Positions 1 through 8,076 of a stretch of 8,278 nucleotides of DNA are shown here, piece by piece. Below the pieces are notes generated by a model. It ran no database searches and had not been told where the DNA came from. It worked only from the letters and a program-made list of their open reading frames with translations. Where the stretch lies: the NCBI GenBank assembly GCA_019057975.1, contig JAHLWJ010000189.1:1-8278 (forward strand), in the 5' to 3' direction. Position 1 is the first letter of the stretch, and each line of letters starts with the position of its first letter. The stretch comes from Promethearchaeota archaeon (lineage in GTDB: Archaea > Asgardarchaeota > Lokiarchaeia > Sigynarchaeales > SOKP01). The position numbers were made by a program, and so were the translations under genes.

Positions 1-2933
1 TCGTCTGATCTACAAACAACTTCAGTCAAATTACAGAATTGAAAAGGTTGCATAACGATCTCTCCGCAATTGTGACTTCTTATACCGTTAGCACAAAACT
101 CGTGGACATCAGAAACCGTGACATCATAAACTTTTTCCATACCGAGTTTAGTAATAGATTTAATCTTATCTGAAAAAGTTTCTTTATACGGCTTTCGGGT
201 ATAAGAATCTACAACCTTTTGAAGCTTTTCTACTTTTGCAGGCTCGTGAAAACCAATAATAGCATGATAAAGAATGATATTATCCTTCGAAATAACAAGT
301 TCGTGATTAGCCTGACAATAATATTCTTTAAGTTCTCTATTTGAATCTGGGAGAAGTTTCATACCAGCATCTTTTCTATTTTCATAAACTTTTGAAATTA
401 TACCCATTCGAGAAAGCATACGTTGAATTACTCGAAGACGGAGAAGATTTGATTGTCCAAGTCTAACAGAATATCCTTTTTTCAAGTTTCCTTGAACTGA
501 TCCATCTGCATCAAACATCCCTCTAATAAACCCTCTTTGGAAATCAGAAGAAGTTCGTTCTGTAATTTCTGTGGGATTCTTTTCTAAAGTAATTCCATAT
601 TTTTCACAAAGTTTATAAAGACCTACACATGCAACTTGAAAAGTTTTGTTTTGTTTGTTATATACATTTGTAAGATCAGATCTAGAAGATACTAAACTTT
701 TAGTGTAACTCAAAGCCAATTCAGACATATATTCTGCCGATTCTTCCCAGAAACGCAAATAACCCATATGATTTCTGTTTTCGGAAGTAGATTTAATAAT
801 ACCTCCATCTCCCATTATTTCTCCAATAAGCCACCCTTCGTTAAAAGTTCCTCCATTTCCAACCCAAGTGTTACCAGATCTATGATTTGAAATATATATT
901 TCATCACCACAAATAAGATCTGAAAGTTTACACCATTCTCCAATAAATTTCTGTTTATTGATTTTAGATTTCAATTTCTTAAGAAGAGGATGATTATCTG
1001 TGAGTTTCAGAATAAATCCTTTGTCTGTTTTTAGTTCATAAACATCTTTAATCCCGGTTTCAAAAAAACCTTCGCTTTCAGTAAGATGAGATTTTCCATT
1101 AACATAAAGATGAGTTTTAACACCAATTAATTCATGAACTTGGCGAGGACCTAATGTAGTTTGAATCCAAGTATCACCAGCTACACATGGATTCATACCT
1201 ACATGATTAATTTTATCTCCTAAAAACTCTGTTCTACGTTTTGGAAGAACCTTTTTCAACCCAGAACGGTTCATAATACCACGTTCTCCAGTCCCAGATT
1301 CAGCCAAAGCTATCCATTCTTTCATAAATTGAATCTGAGAAGGTTTTACATTATAAGCAGCAGAATTGTTAGATAAATAACGCTGAGAATTATTAAGCCA
1401 AATAGGACCATTTTTACAATCTCTCATTTCTTGGTCATCCAAATCACTAATAGATATTAAAGCTGAATTATGAACTAAAACCCCAGAACAGACAAAATTG
1501 TGATTTTCTTCAACTTCAATATCATAAGTATCAGTTTTCCCTGCATTATAAATCCCATGAATATGAACTAAAGAAATAACATCATCATCGGTAGGAAATC
1601 CTAAAATATCATCTTTGGTTAAATCTCCTGCCTCTTTCCAAATAAAATCTGTAGAATTTTCTGGGTTATTAAAAACAGCAACTCGGTGATTAGTTGTGCA
1701 GATAAGAGGCTCTGAAATTCCAGAATGAACAATCTTGATAACTTCTTGAACCCCTTGTTCGACAAAAGCAATGACTTTTTTCCAACCATTAATCGTTTTA
1801 ACTAAATCACCAACATTGATCTCTTGAATCTCTTTATAAGTTTTTTCACCAGTCTCTTTCAACATATCAACTTTCTGTCCTTTAGCAATACATCTTCTAA
1901 CTCCTCCAGCTACTACAATTTGACCAATTTTACAAATGATGTCGTGAACATTTAAAGTAGAGAGTCTATTTTTTCCAGCTTCACGTCTTACTTTAATTGT
2001 TTCATGAATAAAATGATGCAATTCTTTAAGAGGATCTGGACCAGAAGAACGACCACCTGAAGTCATTAGACGTGCACCTTTTGGTCTAAGCTTAGAATAA
2101 TCAAAAGTAATTTGACTACCATTAAATTCAGCTGTTAAACATTTGATAAGAGAATCACACCATCCTTCTTTGCTATCTCCGATTGTGAAAAAACTACTTT
2201 TTGAAGAATCTGTAGGAATAGATAATTCAGGGAATTTGTTTACATTATATTTTTCAACACTGAAACCTACACCTGTCCCAGACATACTCAAATACATAAT
2301 ATCAGCTAAATCTTTGAATGATTCTGGGGCAGAAAAAGAACAATTATACACGCAAACATTACATCTTTCAGCCGCAGAACCAGCAAATTGTAGTAAACGC
2401 ATGCTAGGCATAACTTCCATATTAAGTAAGGATTCTCTGATTCTTTGATAATTTCCTACTTCCAGTTTATCTCCACACTTGGATTTAACAAAATTAATGT
2501 AACGATCTACTGTTTCAGTCCATAATTCTCTACGTTCTTGATCCGGAATCCATTTAGAATAGGTGCGAGAATAAACAAATTCTCGTAAAGGATCTGAATT
2601 AAAAAATTTGCTAGAATTGTCTGCTAAAACTTGAAGTTCTTTAGTGATATAATTCTGTTGCCTGAGTTCTTTATGTTTTTCTCGATAAAGAATATAAGAT
2701 CTTGCTGTTTCAAAAAACTTATTTTCCATTAAACTTTTTTCAACTTTATCTTGAATTTCTTCAACAGTATATTTTTTGGATTCAAGGGAAGAAAGAACAT
2801 CTTGTGTGATTTTTTGACTATCAGAAGTAATGTCAGATGATTCTTGGTTATTTCCTAAAGCTTTTTGAATAGCATTCAAAATTTTCTTTGAATCAAAAAG
2901 AACAACTTCTTGGTTGCGTTTGACGATTTCCAT
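1..2933 (-). CDS. nrdJ: Adenosylcobalamin-dependent (class II) ribonucleotide reductase with two inteins, 3' end cut by window edge
   Basis: This enzyme reduces ribonucleotides to deoxyribonucleotides. The frame is open from ATG at 2933 to the edge (977 codons); about 462 belong to the mature enzyme. Residues 1-90 form an ATP-cone (MEIVKRNQEVVLFDSKKI start), the usual allosteric nucleotide domain. The catalytic barrel follows with MPSMRLLQFAG, VYNCS (Cys198, expected redox Cys), FDYSKLRPKGARL and SGGRSSGP, then VVAGGVRR. Intein 1 interrupts at residues 348-489 and intein 2 at 583-955. After splicing, NPCGE is restored (thiyl-radical Cys about 441, Glu 443), with QFCNLTEVV placing the second redox Cys 11 residues later. 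NPCGE and that spacing mark class II; class I has NLCTE with wider spacing. Whether it uses NTP or NDP is unclear, though the motifs resemble the RTPR group. No small subunit is needed or seen. An early-type promoter lies 30 nt upstream. Confidence 0.95.
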   Translation of the reverse strand, partial: MEIVKRNQEVVLFDSKKILNAIQKALGNNQESSDITSDSQKITQDVLSSLESKKYTVEEIQDKVEKSLMENKFFETARSYILYREKHKELRQQNYITKELQVLADNSSKFFNSDPLREFVYSRTYSKWIPDQERRELWTETVDRYINFVKSKCGDKLEVGNYQRIRESLLNMEVMPSMRLLQFAGSAAERCNVCVYNCSFSAPESFKDLADIMYLSMSGTGVGFSVEKYNVNKFPELSIPTDSSKSSFFTIGDSKEGWCDSLIKCLTAEFNGSQITFDYSKLRPKGARLMTSGGRSSGPDPLKELHHFIHETIKVRREAGKNRLSTLNVHDIICKIGQIVVAGGVRRCIAKGQKVDMLKETGEKTYKEIQEINVGDLVKTINGWKKVIAFVEQGVQEVIKIVHSGISEPLICTTNHRVAVFNNPENSTDFIWKEAGDLTKDDILGFPTDDDVISLVHIHGIYNAGKTDTYDIEVEENHNFVCSGVLVHNSALISISDLDDQEMRDCKNGPIWLNNSQRYLSNNSAAYNVKPSQIQFMKEWIALAESGTGERGIMNRSGLKKVLPKRRTEFLGDKINHVGMNPCVAGDTWIQTTLGPRQVHELIGVKTHLYVNGKSHLTESEGFFETGIKDVYELKTDKGFILKLTDNHPLLKKLKSKINKQKFIGEWCKLSDLICGDEIYISNHRSGNTWVGNGGTFNEGWLIGEIMGDGGIIKSTSENRNHMGYLRFWEESAEYMSELALSYTKSLVSSRSDLTNVYNKQNKTFQVACVGLYKLCEKYGITLEKNPTEITERTSSDFQRGFIRGMFDADGSVQGNLKKGYSVRLGQSNLLRLRVIQRMLSRMGIISKVYENRKDAGMKLLPDSNRELKEYYCQANHELVISKDNIILYHAIIGFHEPAKVEKLQKVVDSYTRKPYKETFSDKIKSITKLGMEKVYDVTVSDVHEFCANGIRSHNCGEIVMQPFQFCNLTEVVCRSD
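69..1187 (-). other. Intein 2: full-length intein (373 residues) with LAGLIDADG homing endonuclease, inserted at NP/CGE
   Basis: This in-frame intein splits the reductase active-site motif NPCGE between Pro and Cys. It starts with Cys1 (CVAGDTWI, block A), has block B as LTDNH (Thr63, His66), and ends with block F VYDVTVSDVHEF and block G GIRSHN, followed by Cys +1. The central domain carries two LAGLIDADG motifs, LIGEIMGDG (about 120-128) and IRGMFDADG (about 221-229). They lie about 100 residues apart, as in a monomeric two-motif endonuclease. The metal-binding acidic residue is kept in both (Asp127, Asp228), and there is no stop or frameshift, so both splicing and homing may be active. The +1 Cys is also the catalytic thiyl-radical Cys of the reductase. 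Sampled GC (30% in one 60-base row) matches the host gene (28%). Confidence 0.96.
1467..1892 (-). other. Intein 1: mini-intein (142 residues) in the ribonucleotide reductase, no endonuclease
   Basis: This in-frame protein-splicing element lies between VVAGGVRR and SALISISD of the reductase, a sequence that is contiguous in class II enzymes. It starts with Cys1 (CIAKGQKV, block A), has block B as TTNH (Thr66, His69), then block F YDIEVEENHNFV and block G ending VLVHN, followed by Ser as the +1 nucleophile. All residues expected for splicing are present. The 70 or so residues between blocks B and F hold no LAGLIDADG or HNH motif, so this is an endonuclease-free mini-intein that cannot home by itself. 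Base composition is as AT-rich as the host gene. Confidence 0.95.
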
Positions 2934-3777: not shown

Positions 3778-4980
3778 ATGTCGAAAGAACTTAATGTTAT
3801 AGGTATAGCTGTTGAAAGTATTAAGAATGACAATTTAAATGAATTGGATAATGCATTAAGAATTATGCCTATTGAAAAATTAAAAGATCCAGCTCAAAAT
3901 TTATTTGTAACCTTCTTATCTTTATGTGCTGGATATAATAGACCTCAAGCTTTAACCATGGTTTTAGATAGATGGAAAGTTGTTTATCCAGATAATGATG
4001 TATTACCTATTATGACAAGATTATTTTTAATTGTCACATTGAATAATTCAGCCTTAGCTTATATTGTTTTATCAAACCCCGAATATACTTATGTAGAATT
4101 AATGGATGACTTGATTAATTTTGATTCAAGTCAAGAAGTATCTGTGGCTTGTGCAAGAGCAGAGAAAATATTTGGTCAACAATCTCATCATACTTATAAA
4201 ATTCTTAGAAATAATGCTAGGGAAATTGGAAATTATGTTGTAGAAGAATACATGGTTGATAAAATAAGTGAAACTGCTCCTTTTGCTCCTATACCAGAAT
4301 ATATTAAAAATCATTTAGCTAGTTATTATCCACAATATAAGGATAAACTTCCAACAGAAAGTGAATTAAACCAATTAGCAGAAAAACAAAGCGAAACGGT
4401 AGAAAACATTACATTACCTTCAGATGATGAAGCTGTAGAAATGTTAACAGAAGGTTTAAGTAGATATGGAATTTCAATAGAAGAAATAGATGCTGCTAAA
4501 GATATTATCAGAGAGGAAATTTCAGATCCAAAAAAGAAAAAAGAATTATTGTTACCATTATTGAAAAATCAAAACGAACAAAGTTTAGATTCTGATAGAG
4601 TTTTATTTTGGATTTATGGTCCAAGTAATCCATTAGTTGACCAAGATTTAACTATAGATGCACCTTCATATAATTTCGGTGGTGCAAGACTTCAGCTCTG
4701 TGATCTGTTTGATTATGATGAGGAATATGATTATGTTGTGGAATGGTTCACAGGGAGTTGTAAACAGTGTTTAATGAGAATTCGGGAAAAATGGCATGCT
4801 GTAAGAAAGCCAAGAAGTATGGGTGGATGGGAACATTGTTACTGTAGTTGGAAATGTGTAAAAGAAGATTTTGAAGAAAGAGAGAATTTCGAGGAAGAAG
4901 AAGATTTATTAACTGAAAGAATAATTGAAGCTTTTGAAAAGAAAACTAAAGAAGTAGGTATTCAAGATAGAACTAAATAA
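3778..4980 (+). CDS. Giant-virus-type hypothetical protein, 400 residues, C-terminal FCS/TRASH-like Cys finger
   Basis: No enzymatic function is recognised. Residues 1 to about 190 are predicted largely helical (LNVIGIAVESIKNDNLNELD, then repeated helix-length segments) and may be a helical-repeat scaffold. Residues 200-290 form a charged linker ending in a Lys/Leu-rich helix (KKKKELLLPLL). The C-terminal domain (about 275-365) begins FWIYGPSNP, then has GGARLQLCDLFDYDEE, WFTGSCKQC (Cys328, Cys331), WHAVRKPR (His340), GGW and CYCSWKC (Cys354, Cys356, Cys360). The paired Cys plus [FY]CS-x2-C ending resembles FCS/MYM/TRASH treble-clef zinc fingers, and from memory the GSC..C....HAVR..GGW..CYCS..C pattern recurs in giant-virus proteins of unknown function. 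The tail is acidic and coiled-coil-like (EERENFEEEEDLL). An early-type motif lies upstream and a palindrome downstream. A role in protein or nucleic-acid binding is inference. Confidence 0.85.
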   Translation: MSKELNVIGIAVESIKNDNLNELDNALRIMPIEKLKDPAQNLFVTFLSLCAGYNRPQALTMVLDRWKVVYPDNDVLPIMTRLFLIVTLNNSALAYIVLSNPEYTYVELMDDLINFDSSQEVSVACARAEKIFGQQSHHTYKILRNNAREIGNYVVEEYMVDKISETAPFAPIPEYIKNHLASYYPQYKDKLPTESELNQLAEKQSETVENITLPSDDEAVEMLTEGLSRYGISIEEIDAAKDIIREEISDPKKKKELLLPLLKNQNEQSLDSDRVLFWIYGPSNPLVDQDLTIDAPSYNFGGARLQLCDLFDYDEEYDYVVEWFTGSCKQCLMRIREKWHAVRKPRSMGGWEHCYCSWKCVKEDFEERENFEEEEDLLTERIIEAFEKKTKEVGIQDRTK

Positions 4981-5010: not shown

Positions 5011-5865
5011 TCAAAAAGGATTTAATGATTCTGTTGATATTCCTGTTTTATATACTATCCATGCTATAAATACTAATATTAATAAACAAATTAAAAATAA
5101 TAAAACCGTGGTCCAATTACATAGCCAAAAATTTAAGAAACTGGTATCAAAACTTATCCAAGAACTACCAGGTAAAGGCCTTAAAAATGATTCACAAGTT
5201 GAACATTCCAAATTACAAATTGAACAAGGCATAACTAATTTTTTAGGAACTACAGAAACCACAGTATTAGTTCTTCTAACAACCCTTGATAACATAAGAG
5301 GACCAGTAGACATCATAACAGTGAAATGTTTTCCTACTGCATAATAAGGTAAAGGTTTCTTCATCTCTTCGATAACTTCTAACCAAAATTTAGATTTAGC
5401 TTGAGATGCCATAAACGAATTAGTGTAATAAGACCCTACATTTCCACTACAAACTAAAAAAACTTCTGATGTGCTTTTAAATAGGGGACTTAAATCTCTT
5501 TGTATTTCAAAATCTAAATCAATATATAACCCTCCATATAAATACAAGAAACAGTACCTTATTGCATCCGCCTTTTGTATATTGTATGGAAAGGCATCAT
5601 AATATGGAAGGAAATCTGGAAAATGTTTTTTGACCATATTTCTATTGTCTTCATCGGTCATTAAAACATATTTCCAATCAGACATTAAATATTTAATGGA
5701 TTTTGGAGATACAGCCCATTTATCTGGAATTTCTTTATTTTTCCATGTTTGCATAATAATTTTAGGTATTCCTGTTTTACATTTTAATGTGGGATAAATT
5801 CCAGAACATTTAGAATTGTAACTAGGTTTTTTAACATTTTCTTGTAAAATTTCGTCCAAAGACAT
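5011..5865 (-). CDS. GT32-like DXD glycosyltransferase with C-terminal membrane anchor
   Basis: This is a predicted sugar transferase of the DXD-containing GT32 type (Gly_transf_sug; relatives include yeast Och1 and the Sur1/Csh1 mannosyltransferases). Residues 33-50 hold the family start IPKIIMQTWKNKEIPDKW. The donor-binding core is KADAIRYCFLYLYGGLYIDLDFE (residues 98-120 by count, with DLD at 116-118 as metal/nucleotide-sugar ligand). Later family-like stretches are TGPLMLS and GSSWISFD. A hydrophobic helix at about 252-272 follows the catalytic domain, with a short tail, giving a C-tail-anchored topology and no N-terminal signal. A four-Cys cluster (214, 217, 221, 224) sits before it and is unusual. 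Donor, acceptor and target are unknown; glycosylation of virion surface proteins is a reasonable inference. Only 11 nt separate its ATG from the preceding hairpin, so its promoter must overlap that hairpin or the neighbouring gene's end. Confidence 0.88.
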   Translation of the reverse strand: MSLDEILQENVKKPSYNSKCSGIYPTLKCKTGIPKIIMQTWKNKEIPDKWAVSPKSIKYLMSDWKYVLMTDEDNRNMVKKHFPDFLPYYDAFPYNIQKADAIRYCFLYLYGGLYIDLDFEIQRDLSPLFKSTSEVFLVCSGNVGSYYTNSFMASQAKSKFWLEVIEEMKKPLPYYAVGKHFTVMMSTGPLMLSRVVRRTNTVVSVVPKKLVMPCSICNLECSTCESFLRPLPGSSWISFDTSFLNFWLCNWTTVLLFLICLLILVFIAWIVYKTGISTESLNPF

Positions 5866-5971: not shown

Positions 5972-8005
5972 TTATCTTTTTTTCAGCCCCACAATTGTCT
6001 CCTCGACCTCAGTTCTACGTCTGAACTTTTCTTTCAAGTTCTCCATATATGTGTCACTTAACGCCCGGGTACCTCTTGTATCTACTCCACATGATCCCTT
6101 AACTTCCGTATTTTCTCCTGCAACTGTTGGTAATGCTGGGAATCCCACAGTTAAATCACTTGTTGAAACAGGAACAGGTCCAAAATCATAAGTAACATCG
6201 TAATCTGAAACATTATCAAATCCTTTGTTACAAGCAACATAACTGGTGCTAATTTCTAAAGTATCTTGAACAGGGATTCCATTATGTAAAAAGGTATTAT
6301 TTAAGGCTGAACAACAATTTGATTCTACCAATAAGACACCGACTTCATTATTAGAAATTTCACAATTTTGAACATTAACTTTATCGTAACTTAAAGCCAA
6401 TACTCCAGATGTTCTGTGGTTTGTAATCAAACAATTAAAAACACTACCCTCTTTAGAATTTCCTGATAAGGCCCTTAGTGTAATTCCAGATTCTGTTCTG
6501 TCTCCGAGGTTATCGTCCGGTATACTGTTCTGAGTAATAACACAGTCACGAACAGAAACTTTACCAATATTCGACCCAATAATACGAATTCCTTGACTTG
6601 ATATATCTGACCCCACAATTGCATCACATGTGTTACCGGACGTATGACAATCTTTAATAAGAACAGAGTCACCTATTCCGGCCCTAAAATTAGTTCCACC
6701 CACATCAATGCCTGTGCATAATTTTAAAGCTACATTAGATCTTTCTAAATTTGTTAAAATTCGATTATCTTGTGTAATACATCCACTAATAGTTCCACCT
6801 TCAGTATAAAATAACGCACATCCGCTTGCTTTTTGATATTGGTCAGGAAATGCTTCACCCTGTAATTTATAGTCAGATACATTATTGGATGCAATACATC
6901 GATCGTATTTAACACTTTTTGCTCTATTTAAATCAAGATCGTCATCAGGTAAAGGTCCTGGTAGAAACCCACTTTGATGAAATCCTTCGACTAACCCTCC
7001 GGATGTATTTCTACAAGATTGCGAATTTGAAATCAAAATATGCCCTCCTGCTCCTGCAACAGGACCTCTAGCAATTCCTTGTGCGCCAATTGCTACATTA
7101 TCGTTAAATTGAGAATCCGTGATGTTAATATTATCAACATTAAAATATAAAAATGACTCACATTGTGAATACGCAACTTTTACATTACTAGAATCTGTCT
7201 TATTAAAGCTTGCACTACACTTATCAATGTTCCAATTTTTGATTCCATGATCTTGTATCAATGATGATCTACTGCTCAAAAATAGTAAACCGCCTGCGAA
7301 TACATTTCCGTCTGTTCCTGGTAAATCTCCAAGCCAATATATTCCTGTTCTACGGGTATTTAATCCATATGAAAAAGAGCACTTTGAAAACTCGTACTCA
7401 TTTCCATTTCCAACAGATATTCCTACAGGATTGTTTTCATCACAAATACAGTTAATCAAAGTTGCTGTATCGATGATTCCGTGATAAGTAGTCATTCCTG
7501 CACGGGCATAGTACTTTGTTTCACCTAATTGAATTCCACCTTCTAAAAATGCATCTTCAGGGGTCCCGAATGTTGTAGGAGATTTTCCACCATTTTTGAT
7601 AACATTAAGTTTAGAGTCATCTTCTCCAAGACGAATTCTTTTGGTTCCTCCTTGAACATAGATACCAATTTGAGAAAACTCTCTTACGGTTCCATTACTT
7701 CCCAGAATGGTCACATTTTCATGTCCAGTTAAAACAGTGATACCGGTGGTCTTAAGAACATCATTTCCTTGACGTAGAGTGAATCCGCATAGGTCAAGCT
7801 GAACATTATCGGCGTCAATCAAAATGGCTGATTTTCCTGTAACATCAGGAACGAAGGAAATATCTTTTGATAAAGCATATTTCCCAGATTTGGTGATATG
7901 AAAAGATTTTTTCAATTGTCCATGAGAACAAAAGTCCTTTTTGCTTATAAGATAAGCAGCTTTGCATGATTTCTCACATTTTTTGGTATCTTTGCATTGA
8001 CACAT
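5972..8005 (-). CDS. Right-handed parallel beta-helix (pectate-lyase-like) repeat protein, 677 residues
   Basis: The fold is read from roughly a dozen degenerate rungs of about 20-40 residues. Typical starts are DNVQLDLCGFTL (67-77), ENVTILGSNGTV, VLIKDCHTSGN, VSVRDCVITQN and VNVQNCEISNN. The DNVQLDLCGFTL signature is typical of giant-virus beta-helix proteins. The N-terminus is Cys-rich (Cys 2, 4, 10, 14, 26) with no clear signal peptide or membrane helix. Many rungs place a Cys after Asn, Asp or Lys, suggesting a stacked Cys/Asn ladder. The C-terminus is a Pro/Val-rich linker and a basic helical end (MENLKEKFRRR). About eight N-x-S/T sequons occur. No catalytic residues of a lyase are evident to me. 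Such proteins act as fibre, tail-spike or polysaccharide-binding parts, and a virion surface role is inferred. Sampled rows are 32-45% GC against 28% in neighbours. No early motif was found upstream. Confidence 0.88.
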   Translation of the reverse strand: MCQCKDTKKCEKSCKAAYLISKKDFCSHGQLKKSFHITKSGKYALSKDISFVPDVTGKSAILIDADNVQLDLCGFTLRQGNDVLKTTGITVLTGHENVTILGSNGTVREFSQIGIYVQGGTKRIRLGEDDSKLNVIKNGGKSPTTFGTPEDAFLEGGIQLGETKYYARAGMTTYHGIIDTATLINCICDENNPVGISVGNGNEYEFSKCSFSYGLNTRRTGIYWLGDLPGTDGNVFAGGLLFLSSRSSLIQDHGIKNWNIDKCSASFNKTDSSNVKVAYSQCESFLYFNVDNINITDSQFNDNVAIGAQGIARGPVAGAGGHILISNSQSCRNTSGGLVEGFHQSGFLPGPLPDDDLDLNRAKSVKYDRCIASNNVSDYKLQGEAFPDQYQKASGCALFYTEGGTISGCITQDNRILTNLERSNVALKLCTGIDVGGTNFRAGIGDSVLIKDCHTSGNTCDAIVGSDISSQGIRIIGSNIGKVSVRDCVITQNSIPDDNLGDRTESGITLRALSGNSKEGSVFNCLITNHRTSGVLALSYDKVNVQNCEISNNEVGVLLVESNCCSALNNTFLHNGIPVQDTLEISTSYVACNKGFDNVSDYDVTYDFGPVPVSTSDLTVGFPALPTVAGENTEVKGSCGVDTRGTRALSDTYMENLKEKFRRRTEVEETIVGLKKR

Positions 8006-8020
8006 TTTTATTTAAGAAAT

Positions 8021-8076
8021 ATTTTTAATTTTTAATTTTTAATTTTTAATTTTTAATTTTTAATTTTTAATTTTTA
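8021..8076. repeat. Tandem repeat: 8 perfect copies of a 7-bp unit upstream of the beta-helix gene
   Basis: Eight exact copies of ATTTTTA (TAAAAAT on the minus strand) run without interruption, 15 to 71 nt upstream of the beta-helix ATG. A ninth copy at 8004-8010 overlaps the start codon, separated by TTTAAGAAAT. The array lies where a promoter should be and its last unit overlaps the hairpin at 8072-8098. The copy number may vary by slippage and change promoter spacing, but that is inference. Confidence 0.95.

Follow-up and report, generated by a model that had tools for sequence, protein, structure and literature searches.

Two neighbouring inteins in a putative B12-dependent ribonucleotide reductase gene on a contig that probably derives from a pithovirus-like giant virus

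How does a ribonucleotide reductase gene work when more than half of its visible reading frame is occupied by inserted sequence, and to which kind of organism does such a gene belong? The contig JAHLWJ010000189.1, deposited in the assembly GCA_019057975.1 of a Promethearchaeota archaeon, raises this question, and we analysed it over its whole length of 8,278 nucleotides, here called the window. We found that the reductase precursor is a single open frame on the minus strand (2933..3), which begins at an ATG and runs free of stops for 977 codons up to the contig end. Upon placing the junctions by script, 515 of the 977 residues are intein, with exteins of 347, 93 and 22 residues before, between and after the two inserts, as follows:

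1893..2933, minus strand: N-extein of the predicted class II ribonucleotide reductase, 347 residues, with ATP-cone, RNR_Alpha and class II (B12-dependent) insertion domain (Pfam PF03477, PF17975 and PF21995), ending in GGVRR
1467..1892, minus strand: intein 1, a mini-intein of 142 residues (residues 348-489) with Cys1, TTNH, VLVHN and +1 Ser, and without endonuclease motifs
1188..1466, minus strand: middle extein, 93 residues, from SALIS to GMNP
69..1187, minus strand: intein 2, 373 residues (residues 583-955) with Cys1, TDNH, the LAGLIDADG motifs LIGEIMGD and FIRGMFDADG, RSHN and +1 Cys
3..68, minus strand: start of the C-extein, whose first 22 residues are CGEIVMQPFQFCNLTEVVCRSD, opening with the Cys aligned to C408 of RTPR; the remainder lies beyond the contig

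An earlier note, made from the letters of this stretch, had claimed two complete inteins of 142 and 373 residues, 93 residues apart in one minus-strand frame, with an intein share of 515 of 977 residues and with Cys1, TxxH, HN and a +1 Ser or Cys kept in both; the script placement agrees with these lengths and this share to the residue, and every motif was located. The G+C content is 32-34% in the N-extein, intein 1, the middle extein and intein 2, and 30.5% in the whole window.

We observe that both inserts display the features of class 1 inteins, namely Cys1, a block B TxxH (at residue 413 in intein 1 and residue 645 in intein 2), a C-terminal HN, a +1 Ser or Cys, a Hint fold and insertion sites that are empty in homologues. 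The junctions read GGVRR^CIAKG ... VLVHN^SALIS for intein 1 and GMNP^CVAGD ... RSHN^CGEIV for intein 2. The Hint fold is supported for both inserts, by a PDB sequence search and by comparing an AlphaFold model with solved structures. In Pfam, the precursor matches Intein_splicing (PF14890; 66.2 bits, gathering score 35.8) and LAGLIDADG_3 (67.1 bits, gathering score 22.5), and the two inteins taken singly both pass PF14890, at 48.5 and 38.0 bits. Among the NCBIfam models, intein_Cterm passes (41.8 versus 15.6 bits) and intein_Nterm lies slightly below its cut-off (22.9 versus 24.5 bits). Furthermore, the two LAGLIDADG motifs of intein 2 carry acidic residues (PF14528, 69.9 bits). Judging from motifs, profiles and predicted fold, the class II reductase very probably carries two inteins that are able to splice.

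The profile search and an alignment to intein-free homologues had been named beforehand as checks, and the earlier note held that its reading would fall if the inserts proved to be normal parts of intein-free reductases or lacked Hint similarity. Pfam and NCBIfam support both inserts as inteins, and among the relatives found with the N-extein (given here by P numbers) the intein-free P0004, P0006 and P0016, of 740-750 residues, run uninterrupted over both sites, as GG[VT]RR-SAL and NP-C-x-E. With these and other relatives continuous across the sites, and with Hint similarity at both inserts in sequence and in predicted fold, it is scarcely credible that these segments belong to the reductase as ordinary, lineage-specific domains and are not inteins. 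Decay is also very unlikely, that is, one or both inteins cleaving without ligation and yielding separate fragments or an inactive enzyme. Intein 1 does lack an endonuclease and has lineage-specific loops, and a fragmented enzyme could in principle assemble, but both inteins retain the class 1 motif residues that were checked, no stop breaks the 977 codons of the frame, and the middle extein is 92% and 94% identical to that of P0001 and P0002, the two nearest relatives, as expected of a constrained enzyme.

The interrupted enzyme looks like an ATP-cone-bearing, RTPR-type, B12-dependent class II reductase, and its class II (B12) identity, as the earlier note had it, is upheld by Pfam, NCBIfam and the alignment of P0006 with the RTPR structure 1l1l. 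This structure is the best solved relative in PDB; it matches two stretches of the N-extein by sequence, and P0006 aligns to it significantly in three stretches (E 2.9e-50), which take in NPCGE and the C-terminal Cys tail. Unlike RTPR, the window protein adds an N-terminal ATP-cone and the two inteins. The Cys of the P0006 NPC falls on C408 of 1l1l, C198 of the N-extein aligns to C119, and N581, C956, E958 and C967 of the precursor are counterparts of the P0006 residues aligned to RTPR N406, C408, E410 and C419. We take C408 to be the radical cysteine of RTPR, N406 and E410 to be its helpers, and C119/C419 to be a redox pair. Adenosylcobalamin dependence is suggested by family membership. Intein 1 is inserted (VRR^S) at the position of S320 in the RTPR chain, and intein 2 directly precedes the Cys aligned to C408. 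Because intein 2 thus parts N581-P582 from C956 and E958, we soundly infer that the unspliced chain should be inactive.

We propose that the frame encodes the precursor of an adenosylcobalamin-dependent RTPR-type reductase, most likely from a pithovirus-like giant virus, in which two clearly different class 1 inteins occupy insertion points that are used in relatives too. Each intein would excise itself, with Cys1 attacking the upstream peptide bond, the chain then passing to the +1 Ser (intein 1) or the +1 Cys (intein 2), and the terminal Asn cyclising, so that the exteins would become joined. The same residue, C956, would act first as splicing nucleophile and afterwards as radical cysteine of the enzyme. 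Intein 2 is probably mobile, with a LAGLIDADG endonuclease that would cut empty reductase genes, and intein 1 is probably an allele of an intein that keeps its endonuclease elsewhere and has lost it here. Among splicing, homing, B12 dependence and viral source, splicing competence, to which motifs and fold point, is the best supported.

To describe how the two sites are filled in relatives, we used the best 120 of 6298 matches of the N-extein protein search, taking proteins of at most 800 residues, P0012 excepted, as intein-free by length; six longer proteins (P0024, P0035, P0080, P0100, P0101 and P0105) show no insert. Across this set, site 1 is filled in 7 proteins (P0002, P0005, P0012, P0013, P0018, P0022 and P0023), site 2 in 19, both in 3 (P0012, whose sequence is cut short, P0013 and P0018) and neither in 97. 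For instance, P0001 (N-extein 79% identical) carries only intein 2, 70% identical, and P0002 (N-extein 71% identical) only intein 1, 69% identical. In P0010 and P0092, two of the 19, the site-2 intein appears shifted by one residue (NPC^C...HN^CE), sits after the radical-type Cys and leaves the extein NPCCE. When intein 1 served as the query, 19 proteins were found, 13 of them new. P0194, whose intein 1 is 81% identical, and P0198 have inserts at both sites. Because inserts at both sites recur in P0013, P0018, P0194 and P0198, all from metagenomes, the window arrangement is not unique on sequence comparison; these four differ from it in how they combine mini-inteins with inteins that carry an endonuclease. 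In P0195, P0196, P0199, P0204, P0205 and P0206 the inserts are merged or poorly resolved, and P0203 is unclear; these proteins were left out of the clear doubles, some of them being probably double. Additionally, P0206 and P0199 have intein-sized inserts at further sites (profile ~660-665 and ~187-206, respectively) and probably hold three inteins each. In P0024, of 981 residues, the start of the profile aligns in two places, at residues 5-102 and at residues 126-865, so that its ATP-cone may be duplicated.

The alleles at site 1 fall into two size groups, with those of P0005, P0013, P0022 and P0023 having 406-414 residues and endonuclease motifs, and those of the window, P0002, P0012 and P0018 having 142-155 residues and no such motifs. 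Intein 1 is read, from these alleles, as the mini-form of an intein with present or past mobility. A rule by which only one endonuclease is present when both sites are filled would agree with the window, P0013, P0018 and P0194. In P0195 and P0196, however, two inserts seem to bear endonuclease motifs, and we therefore claim no such rule. In a FastTree phylogeny built from N-extein sequences, with 121 tips (the window, one phage outgroup and 119 of the 120 proteins, P0031 being absent as its N-extein match is too short), the window falls in a clade of 35 tips with local support of 0.94. Inteins are scattered over 24 of these 35 tips and are found in none of the 86 tips outside, where intein-free status is partly assigned by length. 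This scatter is the pattern that repeated gain and loss inside one exchange group would give. Site 2 of P0017 presents a separate case, in which residues 443-1103 comprise two site-2 type inteins head to tail with zero extein between them; the first has 251 residues and no LAGLIDADG by pattern, the second has 410 residues and both motifs, and Cys1 of the second is the +1 residue of the first. A literature search on tandem, nested, twin or adjacent inteins turned up only the neighbouring inteins of Haloferax.

Several inteins per reductase are already known, which makes the arrangement itself ordinary for the field. Four inteins are present in the ribonucleotide reductase of Trichodesmium erythraeum (Liu et al. 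2003, as cited in PMC1635734); it likewise combines several inteins within one reductase gene, but it is bacterial, and the likeness is drawn from that secondhand description. Since relatives fill both sites and a bacterial reductase with four inteins has been published, the window gene adds a good further case to a phenomenon already known. RNRdb describes about 80 curated reductase inteins (PMC2795772). A 2018 survey counts 117 inteins among eukaryotic large DNA viruses, spread over four families, and shows that reductase inteins from viruses form a cluster (PMC5784728). Over its residues 1-373, intein 2 aligns with 25% identity to the intein in the reductase alpha subunit of phage phi3T, which lies at NL^C...N^CSEV, a position matching the intein 2 site. 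Unlike the window protein, the phi3T enzyme is a phage class Ib reductase, similar to SPbeta bnrdE, which additionally has an intron (PMC8270828). In Haloferax mediterranei, closely spaced inteins in one gene, MCM-a and MCM-d, impede each other's homing (PMC10643990). There, as here, two nearby inteins share one important gene, but both of the Haloferax inteins have working endonucleases, whereas in the window the endonuclease motifs are in intein 2 only. With its empty, single, double and endonuclease-free alleles at two sites that lie 279 bases from each other, the reductase family forms a natural series well suited to testing whether neighbouring inteins hinder mutual homing.

The source of the contig was approached through the genes next to the reductase:

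3778..4980, plus strand: pithovirus-like family gene, 400 residues, the neighbour used for placing the contig
5011-5865, minus strand: glycosyltransferase whose sugar-binding region is of DXD type, with a stretch close to the C-terminus that looks hydrophobic by eye
5972-8005, minus strand: right-handed beta-helix protein, 677 residues

The 400-residue protein has 73 relatives by sequence, none informatively named. Its AlphaFold model (predicted local distance difference test, pLDDT, 83) was used in a fold search of BFVD. With an E-value limit of 1e-3 this search gave 12 matches in all, nine to Pithovirus LCPAC/LCDPAC and the other three to Cedratvirus, Orpheovirus and Solumvirus (one each); we take these viruses to form one group. 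Because of these fold matches the contig is taken, with high probability, to come from a pithovirus-like giant virus, and the viral origin assumed in the earlier note is borne out indirectly, through one neighbouring gene. We consider it unlikely that the source is instead a phage or bacterium whose reductase is of class II. Reductases of this class are frequent in phages, with 1216 of 50,697 phage records matching the precursor somewhere, and in the N-extein the proteins bearing Patescibacteria-type names reach 49-51% identity, above the IMG/VR viral contigs, whose best reductase segments reach 29-47% in searches with the N-extein, P0018 and the alignment A2. The neighbour's fold, however, matches only pithovirus-like proteins within the E-value limit above, this gene has no match in PHROGs, and the relatives with bacterial names all lie outside the clade of 35, though no member's name in that clade shows its organism. 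PHROGs has a match for just one of the four genes besides the reductase, the glycosyltransferase, in a family of unknown function (E 3.5e-10).

A number of observations weigh against this account of a B12-dependent reductase with two inteins in a giant virus. The virus assignment depends on one neighbouring gene on an 8.3-kb contig that is possibly chimeric, and the codon usage of the N-extein and the 400-residue gene correlates at 0.82, a value without a control. PF21995 is barely over its cut-off in the window (29.8 versus 27.0 bits) and near or below it in relatives (P0001 26.8, P0002 and P0018 27.2, P0013 20.6, P0017 28.5). With the RTPR model TIGR02505 the score is 124.6 bits, where the full-length cut-off is 340.05; the window holds only part of the enzyme, as the contig end cuts the gene 22 residues past intein 2 and the C-terminal half is visible in relatives only. 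Finally, intein 1 alone clears PF14890 by only 2 bits.

Searches of viral contigs added little to the placement. The 400-residue gene as single query had no relative among them, and as alignment query it had one distant relative, on L018 (36%). This contig encodes a family B DNA polymerase (L018:6602-11488) with an intein-like insert (PF14890 21.4 bits, under the cut-off of 35.8), a thymidine kinase and YqaJ, a gene content consistent with a giant virus and no proof for the window. One of the reductase searches kept the best 80 of 597 matches. Intein 2 matched one locus at 31%, intein 1 matched two loci over its last 20 residues only, and the loci L001, L024 and L025 are phage-like by eye from their reading frames. 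Against genome contigs, P0194 had two relatives at 36-38%. Upon searching BFVD with the whole precursor, mostly intein matches were obtained; the best 50 include the reductases of Pandoravirus salinus, Marseillevirus LCMAC101 and Medusavirus stheno, and none of these 50 is a giant-virus reductase that could be called class II, which, as classes were not determined, is no evidence of absence. No capsid, DNA polymerase or other core gene was recognised by Pfam in the 8.3-kb window.

The less expected part is the B12-type reductase beside a pithovirus-like gene. A published statement assigns class Ia reductase to all families of nucleocytoplasmic large DNA viruses (NCLDV), in a study whose pangenome omitted pithoviruses for having too few proteomes; a class II gene adjoining a pithovirus-like gene is at odds with that statement. 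If the source is a virus, as the neighbouring gene suggests, its supply of deoxynucleotides (dNTPs) would need B12 from the host or the host's food, and no oxygen. In a literature search outside whose scope most subscription journals lay, no report of a giant virus with a class II reductase came up, and none linking giant-virus reductases to vitamin B12; this makes no claim that such a case is unpublished. We take NCVOG1353 and NCVOG0276 to be class I subunits, which would count against a general presence of class II in the pithovirus group. These ribonucleotide reductase clusters are reported for Cedratvirus, a pithovirus relative (PMC5127014). Overall, the evidence stands evenly balanced on the wider proposal, that a pithovirus-like lineage relies on an oxygen-independent, B12-dependent class II reductase and not on class Ia, and that the gene is an intein hot spot where two adjacent sites repeatedly gain inteins, lose them and shed the endonuclease.

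The motif AAAATTGA, which we take to be an early promoter word of giant viruses, occurs 3 times in the window versus 3.0 expected, giving no signal. Directly upstream of the beta-helix gene, at 8021-8076, we observe a 7-base AT repeat in eight perfect copies, and directly past it a short inverted repeat, ATATAACATTATGTTATAT.
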